Shown here: one piece after another, positions 390-15,540 of the stretch
Layout: every line of letters begins with the position of its first letter
Numbering within the stretch: the first letter of the stretch is position 1
Virus record (IMG/VR): IMGVR_UViG_3300025264_000123
Coordinates: 1 to 22,919 of that record
DNA length: 22,919 nucleotides
DNA from: a virus
Strand: one strand, 5' to 3'
Program-made: the position numbers and the translations under genes
The notes under the pieces: model-generated
Seen by the model: the letters and a program-made list of their open reading frames with translations, nothing else
What the model was told of the DNA's origin: nothing
The model's database searches: none

Positions 390-620
390 TTACCAGTCAA
401 ACGCGGTACAGACAGGGCCACATCCGCATTGCTCACAACTGTGCTTCCGGATATCCGCCATACGTTGAGCTTCTTGGCGCTTCAATCGCTTAATCGCTTC
501 GTACCGTGGGCTTGTCCTAGCTGGAGCGCCGTTCACCAGTTGCTTACATCGTTCACACGTATCCGGTTCATAGCGACCGAAAGCCCCATTGTTGCGGCAG
601 TTGTGTCTTACAAACTCCAT
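390..620 (-). CDS. Small Cys-rich, probably zinc-binding protein (76 aa)
   Basis: A 76-aa frame starts at ATG 620 behind ACACAAGGAGATAACTGGCA, the same leader as the two genes downstream. The protein is basic and carries C-x2-C (CERC, residues 22-25) and a C-terminal C-x2-C-x-C-x3-C group (CEQCGCGPVC, residues 62-71), plus an early Cys at residue 8. This spacing suggests one treble-clef or zinc-ribbon-like metal site. It is first in the minus-strand cluster, directly next to the divergent control region, so it is probably an early gene. The exact family is not recognised; zinc binding is inferred from Cys spacing alone. Confidence 0.7.
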   Translation of the reverse strand: MEFVRHNCRNNGAFGRYEPDTCERCKQLVNGAPARTSPRYEAIKRLKRQEAQRMADIRKHSCEQCGCGPVCTAFDW

Positions 621-675
621 TGCCAGTTATCTCCTTGTGTAGTGCGTAGCCATTTACGCTCCGACTGATACTGTC

Positions 676-705
676 ATATTACAGTACGAAAGCATGACAA
701 CGCAA
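676..705 (-). promoter_or_regulatory. Candidate sigma70-type promoter for the minus-strand cluster
   Basis: Read on the minus strand, TTGCGT (705-700) and TAATAT (681-676) are separated by 18 bases, resembling -35 and -10 elements. Transcription would start near position 668, giving a leader of roughly 50 nt before the ATG at 620. The -35 element is weak, so this is tentative. Confidence 0.35.
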
Positions 706-778
706 TACCTAATATATATAGATACATGCTCATAGGTTAGGGTAATCGACCAAACTACCAATATCAATGTAGCTAGTT

Positions 779-884
779 TTAGGTCAAATGACCCAGGTTC
801 GTTTAGGTCAAACAACCGAAGTAGGTCATATGCCCGAAAGAATCCAGGTCACATGCCCTAAAGCGTTTAGGTCAAATGCCCTAA
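779..884. repeat. Five tandem 18-bp imperfect palindromes (operator or iteron array)
   Basis: Units begin at 779, 803, 821, 844 and 867 (steps 24, 18, 23, 23). All contain AGGTCA. The last unit reads TTAGGTCAAATGCCCTAA and fits the dyad TTAGG-N-CA-NN-TG-N-CCTAA. Unit 1 contains the perfect 12-bp palindrome GGTCAAATGACC; unit 3 is centred on CATATG; unit 2 is the most decayed (right arm CAACC). A possible sixth, weaker unit lies at 737-754. Three steps of 23-24 bp put neighbouring dyads roughly two helical turns apart, suiting cooperative dimer binding. The adjacent HTH gene at 1033 is the obvious candidate binder. A replication iteron array is the alternative, but no replication initiator gene is in view. 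Confidence 0.75.
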
Positions 885-910: not shown

Positions 911-926
911 GGGGGGGGGAGGGGGG
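911..926. repeat. G9-A-G6 homopurine run followed by T5
   Basis: Nine G, one A, then six G (911-926), followed by five T. It lies between the palindrome array and the HTH gene. Such a run could form a G-quadruplex or other non-B DNA and is a likely site of replication or sequencing slippage. No function is shown by the sequence itself. Confidence 0.6.
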
Positions 927-1032
927 TTTTTACATTTACTATTACTGTTATATTCCCATTTACAAAATTGAGGACATCGGGATGACTGATTGATGATGTG
1001 CTACACTGACTTACATCATGCGGAGAGTTAGA

Positions 1033-1476
1033 ATGTCAGTATCGTCCCGTCGTTCTGCGGAGACGGGGAGTCCTGGGTCGAGGGTGTTGCGGTATCCGGT
1101 GTCGTCTGAGGGGTTTGGGGAGTTATTGGATGAGATGCGGATGCGAGCGGGGTTATCGGTCCATGAGATTGCGCGGTTATGGAATGTGAAGCCGAATGCG
1201 TTATATCAGTATTTCCATAAGAAGCGTGGGCGTGGGGGGACGGGGACATTGCGGTGGTTTTTGCGATTTGCGTCGTCGTGTGGGTGTGAGGTGACGGTGA
1301 CGTTTCCGAGGACGAGTCGTGGGCAGGAGAAGGTGGTGTTGTCGTATGGAGAGGAAGCTGAACAAGCGGGAAGCGACGGAACTGGCGTCGATGATTCTGT
1401 CGGGCGCACCCATCGCGGAGGCGGTCAGGTATTTTTGGGACGAGGAGATGCCCGAAGAGGTGTTGATCGGGTGTGA
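1033..1476 (+). CDS. XRE-like helix-turn-helix DNA-binding regulator
   Basis: This 147-aa protein has a helix-turn-helix region at about residues 28-66: FGELLDEMRMRAGLSVHEIA followed by a WNVKPNALYQYF recognition-helix pattern, typical of the lambda-repressor/XRE fold. A short beta-like CEVTVTFP segment (85-92) follows. Start 1033 was chosen over the in-frame ATG at 1018 because GGAGAG lies 5 nt upstream of 1033, while 1018 has no ribosome-binding site. The last 44 codons overlap the next gene in another frame, and this Gly/Arg-rich tail looks less protein-like. Sitting beside the palindrome array, it probably represses or activates the divergent promoters and itself; that regulatory role is inference. 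Confidence 0.7.
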   Translation: MSVSSRRSAETGSPGSRVLRYPVSSEGFGELLDEMRMRAGLSVHEIARLWNVKPNALYQYFHKKRGRGGTGTLRWFLRFASSCGCEVTVTFPRTSRGQEKVVLSYGEEAEQAGSDGTGVDDSVGRTHRGGGQVFLGRGDARRGVDRV

Positions 1477-1783
1477 GGAAACGTGGCCCATGCAACCGGA
1501 GGTCTTATCGGCGTTAGAGGAGCAATCTGGTGGGATGCCGTGGCATCGGTTGGGGGACGACCAGCGCATGGATGTCTCGCTCAGGAAGCATTACAACGAG
1601 ATGGCGTATTTTTTGTGGACGACGAATTATACGGAGTGTGATGGGGCGGCGAAATTGAAAGCGGATACCTGTCGGCAGTCGATTGAGGCGAAAGTGGCGG
1701 GCATGGCGGGGAAAGAGTCTCCGTTGGCGTCGTTTTACCATGATTTACTGCAACGGTATGAGCAGCAGGGGAAAGCGAACTAA
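1346..1783 (+). CDS. Candidate terminase small subunit (145 aa)
   Basis: The frame starts at ATG 1346, with GGAGAAGG about 12 nt upstream. A longer start at 1319 lacks a clear ribosome-binding site. The protein is largely helical and acidic N-terminally (MERKLNKREATELASMI), with a conserved-looking segment HYNEMAYFLWTTNY and a helical C-terminus ending EQQGKAN. Position one to three genes upstream of the large terminase, and size, fit a small terminase (DNA-recognition) subunit, but no specific small-terminase motif is decisive. It overlaps the HTH gene by 131 nt, which is unusually long. Its stop overlaps the next ATG (TAATG). Confidence 0.6.
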   Translation: MERKLNKREATELASMILSGAPIAEAVRYFWDEEMPEEVLIGCEETWPMQPEVLSALEEQSGGMPWHRLGDDQRMDVSLRKHYNEMAYFLWTTNYTECDGAAKLKADTCRQSIEAKVAGMAGKESPLASFYHDLLQRYEQQGKAN

Positions 1784-2139: not shown

Positions 2140-3720
2140 ATGGCCGATAGAGGGGTACCTCCTGCGCTTCGTGATCGCTTAATGACCGAATTTCGGTTGT
2201 TTTTGTGCGATAAAATCGACTTTGTGCCGTTCGAGCATCAGGCGGCATGGTGGGCGACCACCGATGGGTATGAGTTAACGGACGTGGAGGCTGATCCGCA
2301 CGGCAAAGAACCGTGTGCGAAGATGCGTCTGCCTGATGGGACGATTACGTATCGCCTGTTGACGCCCCGTGAGCAGGGACGCGCCAAAGTGGTCGCAGAA
2401 CTCGGAGCCTACAAGTCAGGCAAATCTGCCGGGGCAGGAATCTGGGCCGCAGCATTCGCGGCGGTCCCCCATGCGACGGTGTATCTGGTCGGGAACGAAT
2501 ACGATATGACGGCTCCTGAATTTGACTATCTGCTGGAGGCGATTTGCTCTGAACGCGGATTGAACCAGAAATATAAATCCCTCCAGAACCGTCCGAAGGA
2601 TGGACGCCTCTGGCTGGAACTCGACAACGGATGCCGGTTCGAGGCACGGTCGTGGGAACGGTCTGAATCACTCAAGGGGAAGGAAGTGGACGCCTATATC
2701 TATTGTGAGGCGTATCAACTCCCTGGCATTGAGTGTTTTACCTCCATCGCACAGAATCTTCGGGTCAGGCAGGGGTATGCGGTCTTTCCGACCACCCCTG
2801 ACCGCCCGTGGGTGCAGGTATTTCACGAACACGGGCATGGACACCCCGATTTTCCAGATTGGGTCTGCAAATGCGGGATTCCCGCGACGGTCAACCCGTA
2901 TAGTTTCGATCAGGCGGCAATGGACCGTGATCGGCAACTGCTGACGCGGGAAAAGTTCTCGATTGCGTATCTTGGGAAACTCGGCAATTACGTCGGGCGT
3001 GTGTATAACTATCAGCGCGGAGATCGCCTGATTTCGTTGCAGGATCATCCACGCCTCTGGAAACGGCAGGAAGCGGGACTGACTCGTGAGAATTTCAGAC
3101 TGCCGAATGACTGGCACATTGAAATCGGGGCCGATACCGGCACCTACTGTGCAGCGGTCGTCGTGGGCGTGTCTCCAGAGGGACAGGCGTATATTCTCGA
3201 CGAATTAACCAATTATCGCTATGTGGCGAACACGACAGAGCTTGATCAGGAGAGTTCCATTGTCAGTTGGTGTCAGAGCCTTGAAAAAATGGCGGCATTG
3301 TGGAAAACGCGCCCGATAGCCTGGGTGGATAGCAATAGTCAGTTCAAACAGGAGTGTTTGCACCACGGTATCCATTTACTGGCAAATCGGCAGGGACGAG
3401 AGGTCAGAACCGAGGCCGCACGGCAATATTTCCAGCATGACCAGATTGCGCTGGCTCCGTGGCTCTCGATTGTGCCGTATGAGCTTGAATACGCGCAATG
3501 GCCTGATAAAACGAGTGCCGCAGGGAAATACGAGCGATTCAAGGTGAATGATCATGCGTTGGATTGCGTAGAGCATGTGTTATCTCGTCATCCCCGTGCG
3601 AAAGGGTCACTTGGTCCCCCGGCCATGCAGCCACCACCGGGAAGTGTGCAATGGATGGGATCACCGTTGAGAAAAAAGAAAAAACATCATGCCGCAGATA
3701 GTCATTTAGGAGGGTTATAA
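2140..3720 (+). CDS. terL: Terminase large subunit (ATPase-nuclease DNA packaging motor)
   Basis: This 526-aa protein has the two-domain layout of phage large terminases. ATPase domain: Walker A-like GAYKSGKS (89-96), Walker B DAYIYCE with catalytic Glu at 190, and coupling motif FPTTP (216-220). RNase H-like nuclease domain: metal-binding Asp in GADTG (D332), AWVDSN (D397) and NDHALD (D471/D475). A basic Lys-rich tail (RKKKKHH, 511-517) follows. It pumps phage DNA into the procapsid through the portal and cuts concatemers. Start ATG 2140 follows the previous stop by 11 nt and has only a weak ribosome-binding site. The length is within the usual range for the family. Confidence 0.95.
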   Translation: MADRGVPPALRDRLMTEFRLFLCDKIDFVPFEHQAAWWATTDGYELTDVEADPHGKEPCAKMRLPDGTITYRLLTPREQGRAKVVAELGAYKSGKSAGAGIWAAAFAAVPHATVYLVGNEYDMTAPEFDYLLEAICSERGLNQKYKSLQNRPKDGRLWLELDNGCRFEARSWERSESLKGKEVDAYIYCEAYQLPGIECFTSIAQNLRVRQGYAVFPTTPDRPWVQVFHEHGHGHPDFPDWVCKCGIPATVNPYSFDQAAMDRDRQLLTREKFSIAYLGKLGNYVGRVYNYQRGDRLISLQDHPRLWKRQEAGLTRENFRLPNDWHIEIGADTGTYCAAVVVGVSPEGQAYILDELTNYRYVANTTELDQESSIVSWCQSLEKMAALWKTRPIAWVDSNSQFKQECLHHGIHLLANRQGREVRTEAARQYFQHDQIALAPWLSIVPYELEYAQWPDKTSAAGKYERFKVNDHALDCVEHVLSRHPRAKGSLGPPAMQPPPGSVQWMGSPLRKKKKHHAADSHLGGL

Positions 3721-4602: not shown

Positions 4603-6807
4603 ATGGCCGACAAAGAGAAGAATCTCGCTGATTACACCGACGATTACGACCGTCTTCGCGCTCAGAAGGCCCGAAATGTCGGTTCTGTCGAATTACGGAT
4701 TCTGACGAATCTGTCCTTTGCGTCTGGTGAGCATTGGGTCGGCACGCAGAATCGGGTGCTATTTACGCGGAAACGCGATCCAAACAAGCTGTATCTGGTG
4801 TTTAATCTCGCCGCACAGATGCTCTACAAGATGATGGGGCGTCTGAGCAGCATTGCGCCGGTCTTCAAGGCCAGAGCCGACAAACAAGACCCGAAATCCA
4901 TTGCGGCGTCCGATGTCGTGAACAAACTCGTTCGCGCTCTTGACGAAAAGCTGGATCAGCCTTCACGCACCTGGGAAATCCTCTGGTGGATGTCCATTGG
5001 CGGCGTGGCGTTTGAATATGTGCCGTGGGTCAAAGACGCCACGATGGAACCGATGCCGCAGTTCGATCCCGAAACCAATGAACTGCAATGGACTGATGCA
5101 CTGACGGGTCAGGTCGTGCCTGAGTCTGAACGGCAACTGATGTTGTCGCAGGGGCGCAATCCAGAGGAATTTCAGGTCATTGAGGATATGGTGCTGGCTG
5201 GAGATGTGGGTAGCGAGATATTAAGTCCGTTACAAGTGTTTATTGATGCTTCTGTGCGGTCGATTGACGATCTGGCTCCTGATCAGGCGGTCTATATCGC
5301 CAAAATACGCACCTTGGGGTGGATTGAAGCCAATTACGATGTAAGTAAAGATTCTATTCAAAATATTAAAGATGCGACGGATGTGCGGATTCTCAGCACC
5401 GATATTAAGCAATTCGGTGATCCGACCGGATCGGTGCATCTCCAAGACCTGATTCCACGGATTCAGGGGAGTCGTACGCAGAATGACCCCGATATGGCGG
5501 TGGTGGTTGAGCGATTCCAGCCTATTTCCGAGAAAAACCCCCGTGGGAAATACAGCGCCTTTATTCCCGGTGAACAGATCCTTCACGATGGGGATAACCC
5601 CTACGAATCCATCCCACTGGTCGATTTCCACTGGAGTCCGACCACAACAAGTTTCTGGAACAATGATTACGTCAGTGACCTCATTGCTCCGCAACGCTTC
5701 CTCAATAAGCGACTGTCGCAGCTTGGGGAACAGGCCAATGCGTCAATTTATGCCGACGAACTGCTTGGACCGACCTTAAAGCGGGACGATATTCCGTCTG
5801 ATTACCCTGCTCCGATTGAAGGGGGATTAACAGATGGTGGCGTCAAAATGGTGCAACGGCGTGATCCTCCGCAATTACCAGCGTGGTTTATGCAATCAGT
5901 GGAACTGACACTGAAATTGATGCGAGAAATCGCTGGTGGCGTGGATTTATTCTCAGAGTCGAAGTTTCCTGGTCAAATGCGTGGTCCGATGGCGGTCCCC
6001 ATGCTTCAGGAGATTATTGATACCCAATGGGGGAATCTCTATCAGCATTTGGGTCAGCGACTCGGCAAAGTCAAGGAAATGCGGATTAACCGTGTGAAAC
6101 AGTATTATCCTCCGTTTCGGACGCTGCATTACACCGATAACAGCATGAAAGATGAAGTATTTATCTTTCAGACCTCAGATATTCTGCGTTCTGGCACGGA
6201 TTACTCTATTACCGTTGAGCGAGGGAGTCTGATTCCAGAGCTTCGAGCTTTACGGGAAGCCCGTATTCGTGAGCATTTACAGTCACCATTGAGTGTGCTG
6301 TATATCGACGAGCGTACAGGGCGTATTGACAAGGAAAAGATTGCGGCTGACCTGAGTATGGGCGATATTGGTCGAGAAGATGAAGAATCTCGCTATCGGA
6401 AGCTCGCCATGCACCTTGTCGAGCGTCTGTGGCAGGGTGAACAGCTTCCAGAGCATATTCCCATGCCCTTCTGGAACCTGAAAGTCATTATGGATGAATT
6501 GGAGTCCGAAATGGCTACGACAGAATGGTTGTCAGCCAGTCCTCCGATTCAACAGGGATTTGTGCAATTCTGGAATAAATGTCGTCAATTCCTTGTCGAT
6601 TCTGCGAAACAGCGACAGGAAGGGATGCAGGATCAGCAGATTCAGGGCGCGGTGGCACAGGCCGCACAACAAGCCGCAGCAAAAGCCGCAGCCGAAGCGA
6701 TTGATATGGCAATGGATCAATTCAAAGCCAGTTCAGAGATTGCGCCTCAAGCCCCTCAAGCCTTAGCTCAGGCCATGTCAGAACAGAATCAGCAAGGACC
6801 GCAGTAA
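4603..6807 (+). CDS. Portal protein (P22-like size class)
   Basis: A 734-aa protein placed directly between terminase and scaffold/capsid genes, the classical portal position. The N-terminal region (YDRLRAQKARNVGSVELRIL) and the long mixed core resemble podoviral portals of about 700-750 aa (P22 gp1 is similar in length). The central region includes SIGGVAFEYVPW (131-142). The C-terminus has a long Ala/Gln-rich helical stretch (about 683-715, AQAAQQAAAKAAAEAIDMAM) that fits a barrel/crown-type coiled coil. Twelve copies would form the DNA entry channel and docking site for terminase and adaptor. The call rests on size, order and fold-like features. Confidence 0.85.
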   Translation: MADKEKNLADYTDDYDRLRAQKARNVGSVELRILTNLSFASGEHWVGTQNRVLFTRKRDPNKLYLVFNLAAQMLYKMMGRLSSIAPVFKARADKQDPKSIAASDVVNKLVRALDEKLDQPSRTWEILWWMSIGGVAFEYVPWVKDATMEPMPQFDPETNELQWTDALTGQVVPESERQLMLSQGRNPEEFQVIEDMVLAGDVGSEILSPLQVFIDASVRSIDDLAPDQAVYIAKIRTLGWIEANYDVSKDSIQNIKDATDVRILSTDIKQFGDPTGSVHLQDLIPRIQGSRTQNDPDMAVVVERFQPISEKNPRGKYSAFIPGEQILHDGDNPYESIPLVDFHWSPTTTSFWNNDYVSDLIAPQRFLNKRLSQLGEQANASIYADELLGPTLKRDDIPSDYPAPIEGGLTDGGVKMVQRRDPPQLPAWFMQSVELTLKLMREIAGGVDLFSESKFPGQMRGPMAVPMLQEIIDTQWGNLYQHLGQRLGKVKEMRINRVKQYYPPFRTLHYTDNSMKDEVFIFQTSDILRSGTDYSITVERGSLIPELRALREARIREHLQSPLSVLYIDERTGRIDKEKIAADLSMGDIGREDEESRYRKLAMHLVERLWQGEQLPEHIPMPFWNLKVIMDELESEMATTEWLSASPPIQQGFVQFWNKCRQFLVDSAKQRQEGMQDQQIQGAVAQAAQQAAAKAAAEAIDMAMDQFKASSEIAPQAPQALAQAMSEQNQQGPQ

Positions 6808-6947
6808 TGGCGGTGAATCGGAAGCGTCTTCAGGGCAATATGAAGATGATGATGAAGGAATATAAAGACAATCCCAAAAAATTCAACGGTGGAAAAAAGC
6901 AAGCGATGGCGATTGCCTATTCCAAAACTCGTCGTCGTAAAACTTGA
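6807..6947 (+). CDS. Basic 46-aa micro-protein
   Basis: ATG 6807 overlaps the portal stop (TAATG). The protein begins MAVNRKRLQGNMKMMMKEY and has a basic end KKQAMAIAYSKTRRRKT. The pattern K-K-Q-A-x-A-I-A-x-S-K resembles short phage proteins of unknown function of the type labelled DUF6496; the assignment is from memory of the motif. Highly basic, so nucleic-acid or procapsid-interior binding is plausible. Its TGA overlaps the -35 element of the promoter at 6944-6973. It is too short for most length cut-offs, but coupling and composition argue that it is real. Confidence 0.65.
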   Translation: MAVNRKRLQGNMKMMMKEYKDNPKKFNGGKKQAMAIAYSKTRRRKT

Positions 6948-6973
6948 CACTAGCAATTATTGATTCTTATACT
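6944..6973 (+). promoter_or_regulatory. Strong sigma70-like promoter for the scaffold/capsid operon
   Basis: TTGACA (6944-6949), an exact -35 consensus, is followed after 18 bases by TATACT (6968-6973), one mismatch from the -10 consensus. Transcription should start near 6980. The scaffold gene begins at 7092, giving a leader of about 110 nt. Placement just before scaffold and major capsid fits the need for hundreds of copies of these proteins. Confidence 0.7.
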
Positions 6974-6989
6974 GCAAAAGACTGCACGA

Positions 6990-7046
6990 TTCGCCTAGAG
7001 CGAACAAGGCACGCGAACACGCGGTTTGGGACTCCCCGGCAGGGGA
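6990..7046 (+). promoter_or_regulatory. Leader RNA with three small tandem hairpins
   Basis: Downstream of the promoter lie three short inverted repeats: TTCGC/GCGAA (6990-7004), CGCG/CGCG (7012-7023) and TCCCC/GGGGA (7033-7046). They precede the AGGAGAG ribosome-binding site at 7081-7087. They could stabilise the scaffold/capsid mRNA or tune translation; each stem is only 4-5 bp, so the structure is tentative. Confidence 0.35.
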
Positions 7047-7091
7047 ATAACCTATTCGGCACTCGCAGACCACTCGACTGAGGAGAGTTTG

Positions 7092-7910
7092 ATGGCAGAA
7101 GATGATGTCAATGTCGCACCGGAACAAACAGAGTCTAGTGCGGCACCAGAAAACACTGAAACAGGAGGCGATACCTCATCATCCGGTTCCTGGCCCGCAG
7201 AGGCTCAAGCCGAATACACGAGGAAAACACAAGCTCTTGCCGACGAACGCAAACAGTGGGACTCTGAGCGTTCCCAACAAACGCAGCAGCTACAGCAATA
7301 TGCACAGCAGTTGCAGCAGCAGCAATATGCGAGACAGGCACAGCAACAATCGCAACAGTCACAGCAATCAAACAACACGATGCTGGATCAGTTACGAACG
7401 ATGCCGTATCTGGATGGGAACACCGCCGCCCAACTGATGGAGCGCATGGTCAATGAGGGAATTAACCCTCTGAATAATGCGCTCAAACAGCGTGATCAAG
7501 CACTGGCGGCGTTGTATAAGGATTACAAGTCCTTAAAAGACAGTGTTGGTGCTTCTCAAGGCAAGCAAGCGGAAAAAGACCTCGAACATCGGTTTACGAA
7601 AATCCGTGAGGAACAGGGACTCCCTGACAATGAGATAGTGAACGAACTGATGCGGGATGTGTATTACTCGCATGAGGGAGATACACTGGATCAGGAATAC
7701 CCCGATATGCTGCGAAAGCGGTGGGAGGGGATTCAAAAAGCGGTCAGGGACGGAGATCGGGCTGCGGCAAAAAAGGCGAAGGAATCACCGTTTCCCTCAC
7801 AAGGGGGACAGATTTCTCCGACGAGCGGCAAGACTGGTGGCTACAAGACGCCTGAAGAACGGGCGAATGAATTGTGGCCGATGATCAGTCCCGGTCAATC
7901 GGGTGAATAG
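7092..7910 (+). CDS. Capsid scaffolding protein (272 aa)
   Basis: Start ATG 7092 is chosen because AGGAGAG lies 4 nt upstream; an in-frame TTG at 7026 has no ribosome-binding site and lies inside the leader. The protein is hydrophilic: an acidic N-terminus (MAEDDVNVAPEQTESS), a very Gln-rich helical section (about 60-95), a predicted helical middle and a Lys-rich region (KKAKES). Lack of a hydrophobic core, coiled-coil character and location immediately before the major capsid gene are typical of phage scaffolds, which guide procapsid assembly and leave or are cleaved before packaging. No protease motif is visible. Confidence 0.75.
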   Translation: MAEDDVNVAPEQTESSAAPENTETGGDTSSSGSWPAEAQAEYTRKTQALADERKQWDSERSQQTQQLQQYAQQLQQQQYARQAQQQSQQSQQSNNTMLDQLRTMPYLDGNTAAQLMERMVNEGINPLNNALKQRDQALAALYKDYKSLKDSVGASQGKQAEKDLEHRFTKIREEQGLPDNEIVNELMRDVYYSHEGDTLDQEYPDMLRKRWEGIQKAVRDGDRAAAKKAKESPFPSQGGQISPTSGKTGGYKTPEERANELWPMISPGQSGE

Positions 7911-7939
7911 ATATCGACCTCAGAAGGAGTTGATTACTC

Positions 7940-9229
7940 ATGGCGAGTACAACTGATGTCGTTGAAGCCTTGAAATACACCTATGGTGTGGATCAAGTCT
8001 CGTACTTGGTCAACCAGGAGGTTGTCTGCTGGAATATGTTCCAGAAGGCGAAAAAACCTGTTGGTGGTCGAGGGCAATTCTTGATGCCCATTATGGTGAA
8101 AAACCCCGGTTCGTGGACAGGTCTTGCGGAAGGTGGTTCGTTGCCGTCTAACCTCAATCCCGATACGACCGAGGCATCCTTCAGTCTGGAAGAATTTGCC
8201 GGACTGTACAACATGTCGTGGAAACTCCTCCAAGACGCACGGAACTCAAAGTTTGCGTTTCAGACGGCGTTGAAAATGATGGAGGCGGGTTTCCGTCGTC
8301 GTGTCCTCAAGCTCCTCAATGCCGACCTCTTGTCTGATGGTCTTGGCAAACTGGCCGTGATGCCAGCCGCCGATAACCAGACGACGATTACCGTCGATGC
8401 TCTACCGAGTCTCGATGTCGGCATGGTCGTTGACTTGATGGATGCGTCGGACAACAACGCGAAGTTAGCTGACTCTGCAACGGTCACAGCGATAGATGCG
8501 CCAAATCGTACTGTTACGATTAGCGGTTCTGCGCCAAGTGGCACCGCCGCAGGTGACTACTTCGTCATTCAAGACACGGTGTCGTCAAGCACCTCATACC
8601 ATACCAATGGTTTGTTGGGCATTATTGACAACGATGATCCGCCAACACCGAAGGGTGACTTTGGTGGGATCGACCGTGGTACCGCAGGGAACGAATTTTG
8701 GGAATCTGTGGTCTTGGCTAATGGTGGCACTAACCGCGCACTGACAGAAGACCTGCTGATGCAGCTAGAAGATTCTGTCCGTGAAAAAGGTGGGGCCAAG
8801 TTGAACTCCTACATCTCCAACCTGCCGATTATTCGCCGGTATCACGAACTTCTCCGCGAAGATGCGTTCTTTGCGATGAGTTCACCGAAGGCGTTTGATG
8901 GTGGGTCTGGTGTGGGGCGTGATGGTGGGGCGCAGCAAAAAGGTAAAGATGGTGGCGATGGCCGCACGATTTACCGTTTTAGCGGCAATCCGTGGCACGC
9001 AGAGCCGTATTTTGCGGCGAATACGATTATCGGTCTGGATACCAAGCATTTCTTCATCGGTCACGGTGAAAATGCGGTGCCTCGTCCGGTATCGGAAATC
9101 TTCGATGGAACACCGTTCTTCCGTCAGACTTCCAACTCCACTTTTGAGGTGGCGTGGTACTGGCAGGGTGAGTTGCTGAGTGATAATCCAGCGGCAGGTG
9201 CGAAGATTGAAGACGTAGCAGAGTCGTAA
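7940..9229 (+). CDS. Major capsid protein, HK97-fold type with inserted beta domain
   Basis: A 429-aa protein behind GAAGGAG, directly after the scaffold. The N-arm (1-60) ends in GQFLMPIMVKNPGSW. An acidic and helical segment, about 74-135, includes EEFAGLYNMSWKLLQDAR, corresponding to an E-loop and spine-helix-like region. Residues about 148-212 (TITVDALPSLDVGMVVDL through GDYFVIQD) are a beta-rich insert like those on some HK97-fold capsid proteins. The C-terminal part has SYISNLPIIRRYHELL and NPWHAEPYF. It should form the icosahedral shell. Fold assignment is by layout, size (P22 gp5 is about 430 aa) and position. Confidence 0.85.
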   Translation: MASTTDVVEALKYTYGVDQVSYLVNQEVVCWNMFQKAKKPVGGRGQFLMPIMVKNPGSWTGLAEGGSLPSNLNPDTTEASFSLEEFAGLYNMSWKLLQDARNSKFAFQTALKMMEAGFRRRVLKLLNADLLSDGLGKLAVMPAADNQTTITVDALPSLDVGMVVDLMDASDNNAKLADSATVTAIDAPNRTVTISGSAPSGTAAGDYFVIQDTVSSSTSYHTNGLLGIIDNDDPPTPKGDFGGIDRGTAGNEFWESVVLANGGTNRALTEDLLMQLEDSVREKGGAKLNSYISNLPIIRRYHELLREDAFFAMSSPKAFDGGSGVGRDGGAQQKGKDGGDGRTIYRFSGNPWHAEPYFAANTIIGLDTKHFFIGHGENAVPRPVSEIFDGTPFFRQTSNSTFEVAWYWQGELLSDNPAAGAKIEDVAES

Positions 9230-9719: not shown

Positions 9720-10364
9720 ATGGAGGTCTTTGATCCTGTTCGGTACTCGCTAGAGGAAAACAAGTTTTTCCTGTCACATTTAGGTGAATCTCCTGTTTCG
9801 GCTCTTCAGGAAACACTCCCAAATGGGGTGAATCCAGTTGCGGTGCAAGAAGTTCTCGGCCAGTTATATGAACTGGAAGAACTGAACAAGCATCGTGGGA
9901 TTGCATGGGCAGGAAAAGAGGCGATTTCTGACACCATTGGCAAGTATTTACATGAGCATGAGCGGTGGAGTGAAATGTCCACTCGTGGTGCGCCCCGGTT
10001 TCCAACGATGCACGCCTGGGATGGTCGTGGTCGTCCACATCGGGGTGGCATCACTTCTGATGCTGGTTCAGTCAGTACGTATTTTGATGAAAATGGTGAG
10101 CGAGTCTCGTTTCGGGTTTCCTTGAGAGATGCGGCGTCTGAAGTATTTCAGGCACCGTGGGCAAAAAAGGCAGAACCCGTACCGGATGCGTTGATTGAAG
10201 ATACTGAGAATGGCTCATTAAAGTGTCCCGTCGATGGATGGGTGGCAAACTTTAAGCCAGAATCTCGCCAGTCCTACAACATGGCCCGTGCGCGTATGTC
10301 GAAACACTGTAAAACGAGCAAGGATGATCGTGTTCGTGAGTTCGGTATGAAGGTTTTCGGATGA
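9720..10364 (+). CDS. Hypothetical protein with C-terminal Cys/His motif (214 aa)
   Basis: ATG 9720 follows AGGAGG with only 3 nt spacing; no better in-frame start is near. The N-terminal half is helical (EVLGQLYELEELNKHRG, 44-60). The C-terminal end has a single Cys169, then His196-Cys197 in KCPVDGW...RMSKHCKTS, suggesting a zinc-finger-like fold with one ligand outside the motif. A Gly/Arg-rich loop (DGRGRPHRGG, 101-110) lies in the middle. No family is recognised. Position between decoration and adaptor genes suggests a structural or DNA-associated virion part. Confidence 0.6.
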   Translation: MEVFDPVRYSLEENKFFLSHLGESPVSALQETLPNGVNPVAVQEVLGQLYELEELNKHRGIAWAGKEAISDTIGKYLHEHERWSEMSTRGAPRFPTMHAWDGRGRPHRGGITSDAGSVSTYFDENGERVSFRVSLRDAASEVFQAPWAKKAEPVPDALIEDTENGSLKCPVDGWVANFKPESRQSYNMARARMSKHCKTSKDDRVREFGMKVFG

Positions 10365-10846
10365 TAGACACCCCACCGATTGAGGAAAGTCCTCAGTTTT
10401 GGCATCCTAATCGGTTTGGGGTTCAGTTTGCACCGGAGTCCTTTCGACAGCAGCTTCGGGGTATACATCACGATTTGGAGGCCACATGGCATCCTCTTCG
10501 TGAGCGTTGGTTGGTCTGGTACAAGCGTCCTCGTATACAACACCATCGGTCTAAAGGATGGCTGTTGTTGTTTGTGGTGGAAGACTCTAGTGGTCAATAT
10601 GTCCCACTGGACACCCGCGCACTTGCCGCCTGTTATGAACAGAGCGGTTTTAAGTGGGGGTCTGGTAAGAAATATTGGGCTAGGGTTGAAGAAGAGTCAC
10701 AGCGAGAGCAAATGGAACGCGATGCTGACCGAGAGCAAGAGCTTTCGGACGTAGGGTCTGATCGATGGGATCATACGAAAATACAGGTCAGTATGCGTGG
10801 TCATTCCTCTGGCAGTAAATTTGTGAATCACCATGCGGGGGATTAA
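10361..10846 (+). CDS. Hypothetical protein (161 aa)
   Basis: Starts by ATGA overlap with the preceding stop (ATG 10361-10363, TGA 10362-10364), so translation is coupled. It has a compact aromatic N-terminal part (ATWHPLRERWLVWYKRP, 41-57; KGWLLLFVVED, 65-75), a KWGSGKKYW segment, and a charged helical segment EEESQREQMERDADREQELS (110-129), then a His-rich end. The Trp-rich core suggests a small globular beta fold. No known family is recognised. Its steady partner position with the upstream gene suggests they act together. Confidence 0.6.
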   Translation: MIDTPPIEESPQFWHPNRFGVQFAPESFRQQLRGIHHDLEATWHPLRERWLVWYKRPRIQHHRSKGWLLLFVVEDSSGQYVPLDTRALAACYEQSGFKWGSGKKYWARVEEESQREQMERDADREQELSDVGSDRWDHTKIQVSMRGHSSGSKFVNHHAGD

Positions 10847-14090: not shown

Positions 14091-15540
14091 CTACGACTGG
14101 TGGATTCAGCATTCGCATACGGATAGCGCGTTTCTCCTGCTGGCTGATTCGCCTGAACTCTTTGAACAATCAATTTTGTCGCGGTTGAAAAAAGTCAAGC
14201 GCAAACCAGACCAGGGTGTCATCAATCAAGCGACGTATCGAGCGATTCACGAACAGGATCGGTTCGGGTCGATGTCGTCGATCCTTGATGCTATTCAGCC
14301 TGAGCCAGAGGTGGTTTCCTCTCGCCCTTTTATGGGGAGTTTACGGACTGACCGACACGCTTTACGTGACGATCAGGGTTCATTTCCAGCCGTAGGTGTC
14401 AGTGCGTTCTGGTCCCCGTGGGCGGTCAAATACAATCCCGGTCAACTGGAACGCCTTGCGGAATGGGCGAGTGGATGTGGGATGACGTATGTGCGGTGGT
14501 TTGGCGCACATGACTGGCCGGGAGGTATCAATCCTTACAACGGACACAGTGTCGATCCGTCCTACTTCTCACTCATGCAACAGACGATTGACTCTCTTGC
14601 AGAATATGGTCTGCGCTCTCAGATTACGATGTTTACCAGGCGTAAGATGATCAAGGATGCCGAATCATTGGCGCGAGGATGGGCCGACCTCGTGAAAGAG
14701 AATAGGGATAAGGTCTGCCTCGTTGAGTGTGTGAATGAATGGAACCATACACATAATGATTGGTCGGATAATGAGGTCCGGTCGGCGTCTGCGGCATTTC
14801 AGGAGCGTTGTGATGTTCCATTTGCTTTATCTGCGACTTCCGCTGAGACATGGGAGGACATGAAAGAGCGGTTAACGCATCTCTATACCGGCTCATCGGC
14901 TTCAGCGACAACGATTCATTTCCCTCGTTATCAATCTACACATGAAGGAGCATGGAGATGGGTTCGGCAACCGTGGCATGGACGCTGGCCGATTGAAGGA
15001 TGCCCTGAATTTGTGGTCGATAACGAACACCAACGATGGGATAAAAGCTCTAGCGGAAGAGAAGTCGCGGTGGCTGCGGCGGCTCCGCTCAATGCCTTTA
15101 TTGCGGGTTGTGGGATGTCTACACACCATGATGTCTTTGGGGTTCACATCAAAAACGGCGAGTACAGCTCAGACTTGGCCTCTCAGCGACTCCAGAAGGT
15201 CTTATCGAAGGTTATCCCTCTCTTGCCACCTGATGTCGCTAATTGGCAGTCTACGCGGGTTGGTGAGGGTGGTGGCCCACATCCATTTCCCTCCCTGTTG
15301 AACCAGCAATGGAGTACGGAAGATACGGATACTGGCGTGTCACGCTCATTTGCAGCCGTTCGTGGTGATGATTTTGTCATGTGCCTGAACGGAGTTCGTG
15401 GCTCAGTCACACTCCATGAGTCACATCCCAAAAAATTTCGCGTGATTTCTTTGGACGATGGCGTCACAATTCACGAAGGGCATGGGCCGACCATATTAAG
15501 CGAGGTTAATGGTCAAGCATTCTACGTAGGGACGATGTAA
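14077..15540 (+). CDS. Putative clan GH-A-like glycoside hydrolase, virion-associated (487 aa)
   Basis: The central part (about 100-360) looks like a TIM-barrel glycosidase: GVSAFWSPWAV (107-117), VRWFGAHDWPG (139-149), LVECVNEWNHTHND (215-228) with the N220-E221 acid/base pair expected after strand 4, and CPEFVVDNEHQRWD (309-322) with E317 as candidate nucleophile late in the barrel. A helical N-terminal segment (1-80) may anchor it to the tail, and the C-terminus is beta-like. In a phage tail cluster such an enzyme would cut host surface polysaccharide before or during adsorption. The exact GH family and substrate cannot be told; the start overlaps the previous gene by 14 nt. Confidence 0.65.
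   Translation: MKKPDYDWWIQHSHTDSAFLLLADSPELFEQSILSRLKKVKRKPDQGVINQATYRAIHEQDRFGSMSSILDAIQPEPEVVSSRPFMGSLRTDRHALRDDQGSFPAVGVSAFWSPWAVKYNPGQLERLAEWASGCGMTYVRWFGAHDWPGGINPYNGHSVDPSYFSLMQQTIDSLAEYGLRSQITMFTRRKMIKDAESLARGWADLVKENRDKVCLVECVNEWNHTHNDWSDNEVRSASAAFQERCDVPFALSATSAETWEDMKERLTHLYTGSSASATTIHFPRYQSTHEGAWRWVRQPWHGRWPIEGCPEFVVDNEHQRWDKSSSGREVAVAAAAPLNAFIAGCGMSTHHDVFGVHIKNGEYSSDLASQRLQKVLSKVIPLLPPDVANWQSTRVGEGGGPHPFPSLLNQQWSTEDTDTGVSRSFAAVRGDDFVMCLNGVRGSVTLHESHPKKFRVISLDDGVTIHEGHGPTILSEVNGQAFYVGTM

Follow-up and report, generated by a model that had tools for sequence, protein, structure and literature searches.

What binds a compact cluster of palindromes that lies between the early and the late genes of a phage, and what is it for? 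The window (the whole stretch of DNA that we analyzed, 22,919 nucleotides) is part of a phage with genes for a large terminase, a P22-like portal, an SU10-type adaptor and a metallophosphoesterase. A longer record, G001 (41,420 bases), includes 22,901 bases of the window at 99.996% identity, and its leftward early region codes for a replication initiation protein, an ERF annealing protein and an endolysin-like protein and contains many small genes. The preliminary description had placed the array between divergent modules, and this layout holds: the array is located in non-coding DNA flanked by leftward early genes and by a rightward block of HTH, terminase and structural genes (Table 1). Among the genes examined, neither an integrase nor a lysogeny gene was recognized.

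Table 1. Features around the palindrome array (positions in the window unless G001 is given)
Feature	Position	Strand	Remarks
First leftward early gene, small Cys-rich (zinc-ribbon-like) protein	390..620	-	76 aa
AT-rich flank left of the array	661..780	.	62-65% AT
Degenerate sixth unit TTAGGGTAATCGACCAAA	737..754	.	15.4 bits
Dyad unit 1 TTAGGTCAAATGACCCAG	779..796	.	22.6 bits
Dyad unit 2 TTAGGTCAAACAACCGAA	803..820	.	TTAGGTCAAACGACCTAA in strain L004
Dyad unit 3 GTAGGTCATATGCCCGAA	821..838	.	22.4 bits
Dyad unit 4 CCAGGTCACATGCCCTAA	844..861	.	CCAGGTCGTATGCCCGAA in strain L004
Dyad unit 5 TTAGGTCAAATGCCCTAA	867..884	.	25.5 bits; highest symmetry, 7/9 pairs
G-run GGGGGGGGGAGGGGGG	911..926	+	position conserved in most relatives
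Conserved box CCCATTTACAAAATTGAGGA	955..974	+	family form CCCRTCTACRAAATTGAG
TACACT, -10-like element at the place of the family late promoter	1002..1007	+	10 bases before ATG 1018
HTH protein (HipB/XRE-like)	1018..1476	+	PHROG 1373, transcriptional regulator
Gene between HTH and large terminase, small-terminase position	1346..1783	+	function by position only
Terminase large subunit	2140..3720	+	PHROG 2, E 5.7e-12
Replication initiation protein	G001 9754-10512	-	PHROG 270, E 4.5e-32; N-terminal winged-helix domain

Among all 80-bp stretches of the window, the one at 710-789 has the highest AT content (69%). We regard the AT-rich flank as a candidate unwinding element and a candidate early-promoter region. 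A separate 18-bp palindrome (TACTGTCATATTACAGTA, 669-686, 8 of 9 pairs) precedes the leftward early genes and is duplicated in strain L004; it is a possible operator of the early promoter. The contigs of several relatives, G031 included, stop at or near the G-run to the right of the array. It resembles the G-run of mitochondrial CSBII, which primes replication. The conserved box and the promoter that follows it are found at 955-1020 of the window, 1698-1738 of L044 and 4212-4252 of L028; in many relatives this promoter is strong. The late promoter of the family reads TTGACT-N17/18-TAGACT, and the -35 element of the window itself is poor. In many relatives the -10 element is located about 10 bases before the ATG of the HTH gene, thus the late operon may begin with a leaderless mRNA. 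The gene which follows the HTH gene did not match any family.

The five 18-bp imperfect dyads are located exactly where the preliminary description had seen them, at steps of 24, 18, 23 and 23, and their consensus is TTAGGTCAnnTGmCCTAA. With a scoring matrix built from the array units themselves, the five units reach 19.7-25.5 bits and the sixth 15.4 bits, compared with 10.8 bits for the runner-up 18-mer of the 22.9-kb window. In 20 shuffled versions of the 41.4-kb parent genome (828 kb in total) we found no site of at least 19 bits and nine sites of at least 15 bits. The hexamer AGGTCA is present five times between 641 and 1020, and five copies of any hexamer were not reached in any of 1000 dinucleotide shuffles. 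Taken singly, the units are moderately symmetric (5-7 of 9 pairs); the number of strict dyads is by itself not significant, being matched in 152 of 1000 shuffles. We nevertheless read the units as dyads because several of the L044 units (TAGGTCAACTGACCTA, TTGGTCGAATGACCGA) are nearly perfect and because unit 2 of strain L004 is a near-perfect palindrome. The consensus, an independent relative and a strain variant thus all bear out the description of the units as imperfect palindromes. The decayed sixth unit, suggested only as a possibility, also gains support, as it lies 25 bp to the left of unit 1 and was duplicated together with this unit in L004. Each dyad would presumably be bound by a dimer. 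A CRISPR-like array is ruled out by the spacing, since the gaps measure 0-6 bp and are not spacers of about the length of the repeat.

The terminase search retrieved 75 relatives from viral contigs; there was no match among 84,980 host genomes and none in the phage collection. When we compared the readable regions upstream of the terminase genes, we found unrelated repeats at the same place. Type A is present in the window, in L004 and in L044 (five units). Only L044, which likewise carries a large type-A array, has a homologue of the Cys-rich first early gene at the equivalent place. Type B (ATCCA-N6-TGGAT) occurs six times in L006, twice each in L012 and L214, once in L229, and as one clear and one imperfect copy in L013. 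Seven copies of type C (TGTCA-N6-TGACA) are carried by L028, and about five or six of type D (AAACGATCGTTT) by L034 and L035. Direct repeats take this place in L023 (CTGCGATAT), L213 (AATAGGTGGAAAAC) and L205, and in L031, L009, L020 and others there is no array at the locus. Types A and B are mixed within L012 and L013, and the lone A site of L034 and the lone C site of L044 may be due to chance. Searching all viral contigs for type A revealed arrays only in the species of the window, strain L004 included. The other matches were mostly isolated and are taken as chance occurrences; a few contigs (e.g., L086 and L087) have two or three sites. In the literature we found nothing relevant on arrays of this kind in marine phages. 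The contig of L016 starts with a fold-back inverted duplication (1-130) centered in type-B dyads, probably an artifact of assembly or amplification. As unrelated repeats occupy the same spot in relatives, the array appears to be a rapidly changing landing site for a protein.

The array also varies between strains. Over 3.8 kb the window and L004 differ by 13 substitutions, six of which fall into the 106-bp array and five of these six within units. Such clustering has a probability of about 1e-6 (binomial with independent sites, computed by hand). In addition, L004 has a 145-bp tandem duplication which spans the sixth unit and unit 1, and its unit 2 shows higher symmetry than the unit 2 of the window.

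By analogy with known phage and satellite origins, we suggest that the array may represent the iterons of a replication origin, located in the non-coding gap from which the early and late units diverge. We give this reading a probability of roughly 45%. Replication initiation could then proceed in the following steps. A dimer of the phage's own initiator would bind each 18-bp dyad with its N-terminal domain. Assembly of the initiator over the five to six sites would then lead to opening of the AT-rich flank (about 660-780) and to loading of the host replisome. Across the family, the DNA-binding domains of the initiators would differ from phage to phage, and the repeats at this locus would differ accordingly. 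The array, its position, its presence in L044, its turnover and its independence of the HTH gene are established by the sequences; dimer binding, the binder, the origin function and the cause of the turnover are what we infer.

Several observations are consistent with an origin. The initiator gene adjoins the genes for ERF and other replication proteins in G001. Between the first four initiators compared, the N-terminal region is 26-49% identical and the C-terminal region 35-64%, with the N-terminal value lower in all six pairs; with six initiators the N-terminal region is the more divergent one in 10 of 15 pairs. Among the initiator-bearing records, five are readable in this region, and four of these have 4-7 repeats (type A in G001, type C in G018, direct repeats in G005 and G028), whereas in the three polymerase-A records no repeat type reaches four copies (one-sided p = 0.07, computed by hand). 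G001 itself yielded no relative of the DNA polymerase A of this family. The cumulative GC skew of G001 shows a local minimum at 18-19 kb, that is, at the location of the array, and is confounded by gene direction. A pairing between the N-terminal domain of the initiator and the type of repeat is not visible among the cases at hand, which are too few. Searching by pattern for relatives of the initiator retrieved only the initiator itself, and a broader pattern led to a broad superfamily too distant to help.

Two records are exceptions. G003 codes for an initiator and has no array at the locus. Its only notable repeat cluster consists of about seven direct repeats of GGTGGAGA near the replication genes (G003 31735-31805, L060 11735-11805), which are candidates for displaced iterons. 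G012, on the other hand, has polymerase A, and no initiator was found within 20 kb, yet the locus contains a type-A dyad and two type-B dyads. In this record a uracil-DNA-glycosylase domain is fused to DNA polymerase A (G012 6154-8748, L097). The same type of polymerase is also present in G010 and G027, and no initiator was detected in any of these three records. The exceptions G003 and G012, together with a single type-A site at G001 15231-15248, keep a regulatory function of the array alive.

In such a role the array would be bound not by the adjacent HTH protein but by another phage-encoded regulator, for example by an early protein of the ribbon-helix-helix or winged-helix kind. Sitting on the array, this regulator would act on the divergent early and late promoters, and through one single site it would reach a second early operon. 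We consider this the main rival of the origin reading, though less likely. The array is situated between divergent transcription units, and unit 1 of the window provides a weak -35 element (TTGACC-16-GATATT). The extra type-A site (20.6 bits, L054) is found in a gap of 85 bp just upstream of a leftward three-gene operon, compared with no site of at least 19 bits in the 20 shuffled genomes. Being a lone site before an early operon about 4 kb from the array, it suits a transcription factor better than an origin. The third gene of the operon (G001 14474-14659) codes for a protein that looks ribbon-helix-helix-like by eye, but neither Pfam nor PHROG supports this. Type-A sites occur in both G001 and G012, but among the early proteins which the two records share none is obviously a sequence-specific binder, and a copy number of 5-9 is high for a promoter operator. 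Moreover, there is no overlap of the array with the best early promoter (L006, L028, L034) or, where scored, with the late promoter. The distance to the -35 element of the best early promoter is 70-100 bp in these three relatives, and that to the late promoter 80-115 bp in L028 and L034. In those relatives, these distances disfavor a plain blocking switch. In the window the promoters are weak and unit 1 may overlap one of them. Of the multi-operator switch proposed in the preliminary description the position between divergent modules stands, whereas the HTH protein as operator binder (see below) is not supported and, in L006, L028 and L034, the plain blocking of promoters is not favored.

The proposed binder of that switch, the adjacent HipB/XRE-like HTH protein, is not likely to recognize the array as judged from the protein sequences, and we give this possibility little credit. 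Its gene adjoins the array, its predicted fold is HipB-like at moderate confidence (best E 0.008, mean pLDDT 73.5), and each unit has two 5-bp half-sites which are 8 bp apart. The type-B units of L012 and L013 (TATCC-N8-GGATA) also resemble the HipB operator. The HTH gene, however, precedes the terminase genes in most relatives and persists where the array is absent or swapped for unrelated repeats. L044, L028 and L034 share the same 15-residue recognition stretch, yet their arrays are of types A, C and D, so that the sites are not conserved along with the recognition helix; between the window and L006 it is identical in 14 of 15 residues, yet the arrays are of types A and B. The preliminary description itself had named relatives with the HTH gene and no array as a refutation of the switch, and L031 is such a case (HTH gene present, one of the 15 residues different). 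At the level of these sequences the array type follows neither the HTH gene nor its recognition helix. Even if the units are regulator sites, a conserved neighboring HTH gene is therefore a poor guide to the binder of an adjacent palindrome array.

It is improbable that the units are sites for a host-encoded nucleoid or segregation protein which differs from host to host. In favor of this idea type A recurs in three lineages, and host-type parS sites (TGTTCCACGTGGAACA) are present in the same region of G003 and G019 and, with one mismatch, of G006, G011-G013 and L035. The sequence is identical to parS2 and parS3 of P. aeruginosa (PMC4368675). The arrays, however, turn over between close relatives and strains, the terminase search of host genomes yielded no host, and no parS site was found in the window. 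The parS-type sites are located at L031 1422-1437 (G003), G019 21046, G006 15924, G011 3355, G012 20150, G013 5587 and L035 1302, upstream of the terminase genes in relatives with no or with different arrays. Shuffled records did not contain any such site at up to two mismatches, and the phages may exploit the host ParB. Also improbable is a cosB- or pac-like packaging site to which the small terminase would bind, for although the array lies just upstream of the terminase genes, is followed by the conserved box and the G-run, and is a region where the contigs of several relatives terminate, the large terminase is 75-84% identical across phages with unrelated arrays, where a cosB or pac site should be conserved, the contig ends also agree with assembly breaks at G-runs and strain-variable repeats, and the box and the G-run are the better packaging candidates.

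If the array consists of origin iterons, it is tempting to ask why it is replaced. An arms race or incompatibility might drive this family of uncultured marine phages to swap whole origin-recognition arrays at a fixed locus, which we consider rather unlikely. At least five unrelated repeat types, some of them mixed within one phage, contrast with an unchanged promoter, HTH gene and terminase; the driving forces could be origin-directed nucleases or satellites, or incompatibility between co-infecting phages. As iterons, the arrays would make up a natural series in which initiator and origin are matched, in a constant genomic context and with ongoing variation visible between strains; this would allow one to ask what drives the turnover of phage origins.

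How does the array compare with known systems? With HipB operators it shares an adjacent gene that is HipB-like by predicted fold and, in types A and B, half-sites 8 bp apart; it differs in that the array type is independent of the HTH helix and that no toxin gene was recognized beside the array. Lambda OL/OR and the stoperators of cluster A mycobacteriophages likewise have several similar sites with an additional site elsewhere in the genome. Here, however, the sites are clustered in one place and off the promoters in three relatives, and the genes examined include no recognizable integrase or lysogeny gene. Stoperators are furthermore asymmetric, whereas the array units are dyads.

Additional iterons are carried by Stx phages. 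The iterons of lambda are themselves 18-bp imperfect inverted repeats with steps of 20, 24 and 23 (J02459 annotation; PMC7466680), so the premise that dyad repeats differ from simple iterons was wrong. With four to six copies of such repeats, steps of 24/18/23/23 against 20/24/23, an AT-rich flank (here 661-780, for which promoters could also account) and a phage-encoded initiator with an N-terminal DNA-binding domain, the two arrangements are alike. They are unlike in that the single step of 18 falls below the lambda range, that the repeat sequences are unrelated, and that the initiator belongs to PHROG 270 and not to the O family (PF04492/PHROG 277). The G001 initiator has no O-family match, two relatives match weakly (0.004-0.009), and aligning the profiles of the initiators with that of lambda O gave no significant result. 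Above all, the array is not located inside the initiator gene but at a distance of about 9 kb from it, in non-coding DNA; we therefore do not file it as a member of the ori-lambda type.

This separation is known from the PLE satellites (Vibrio cholerae/ICP1), where a non-coding origin lies apart from repA, semi-palindromic iterons covary with the N-terminal domain of RepA, and iteron duplication occurs as a natural variant (PMC8263062). PLE differs in being a satellite with three iterons of about 30 bp and in that the covariation is established there, whereas no such pairing is visible here. The likeness extends to an intergenic origin away from the initiator gene, to semi-palindromic iterons, to origin types which swap between relatives, and to a duplication with a few substitutions as natural variation.
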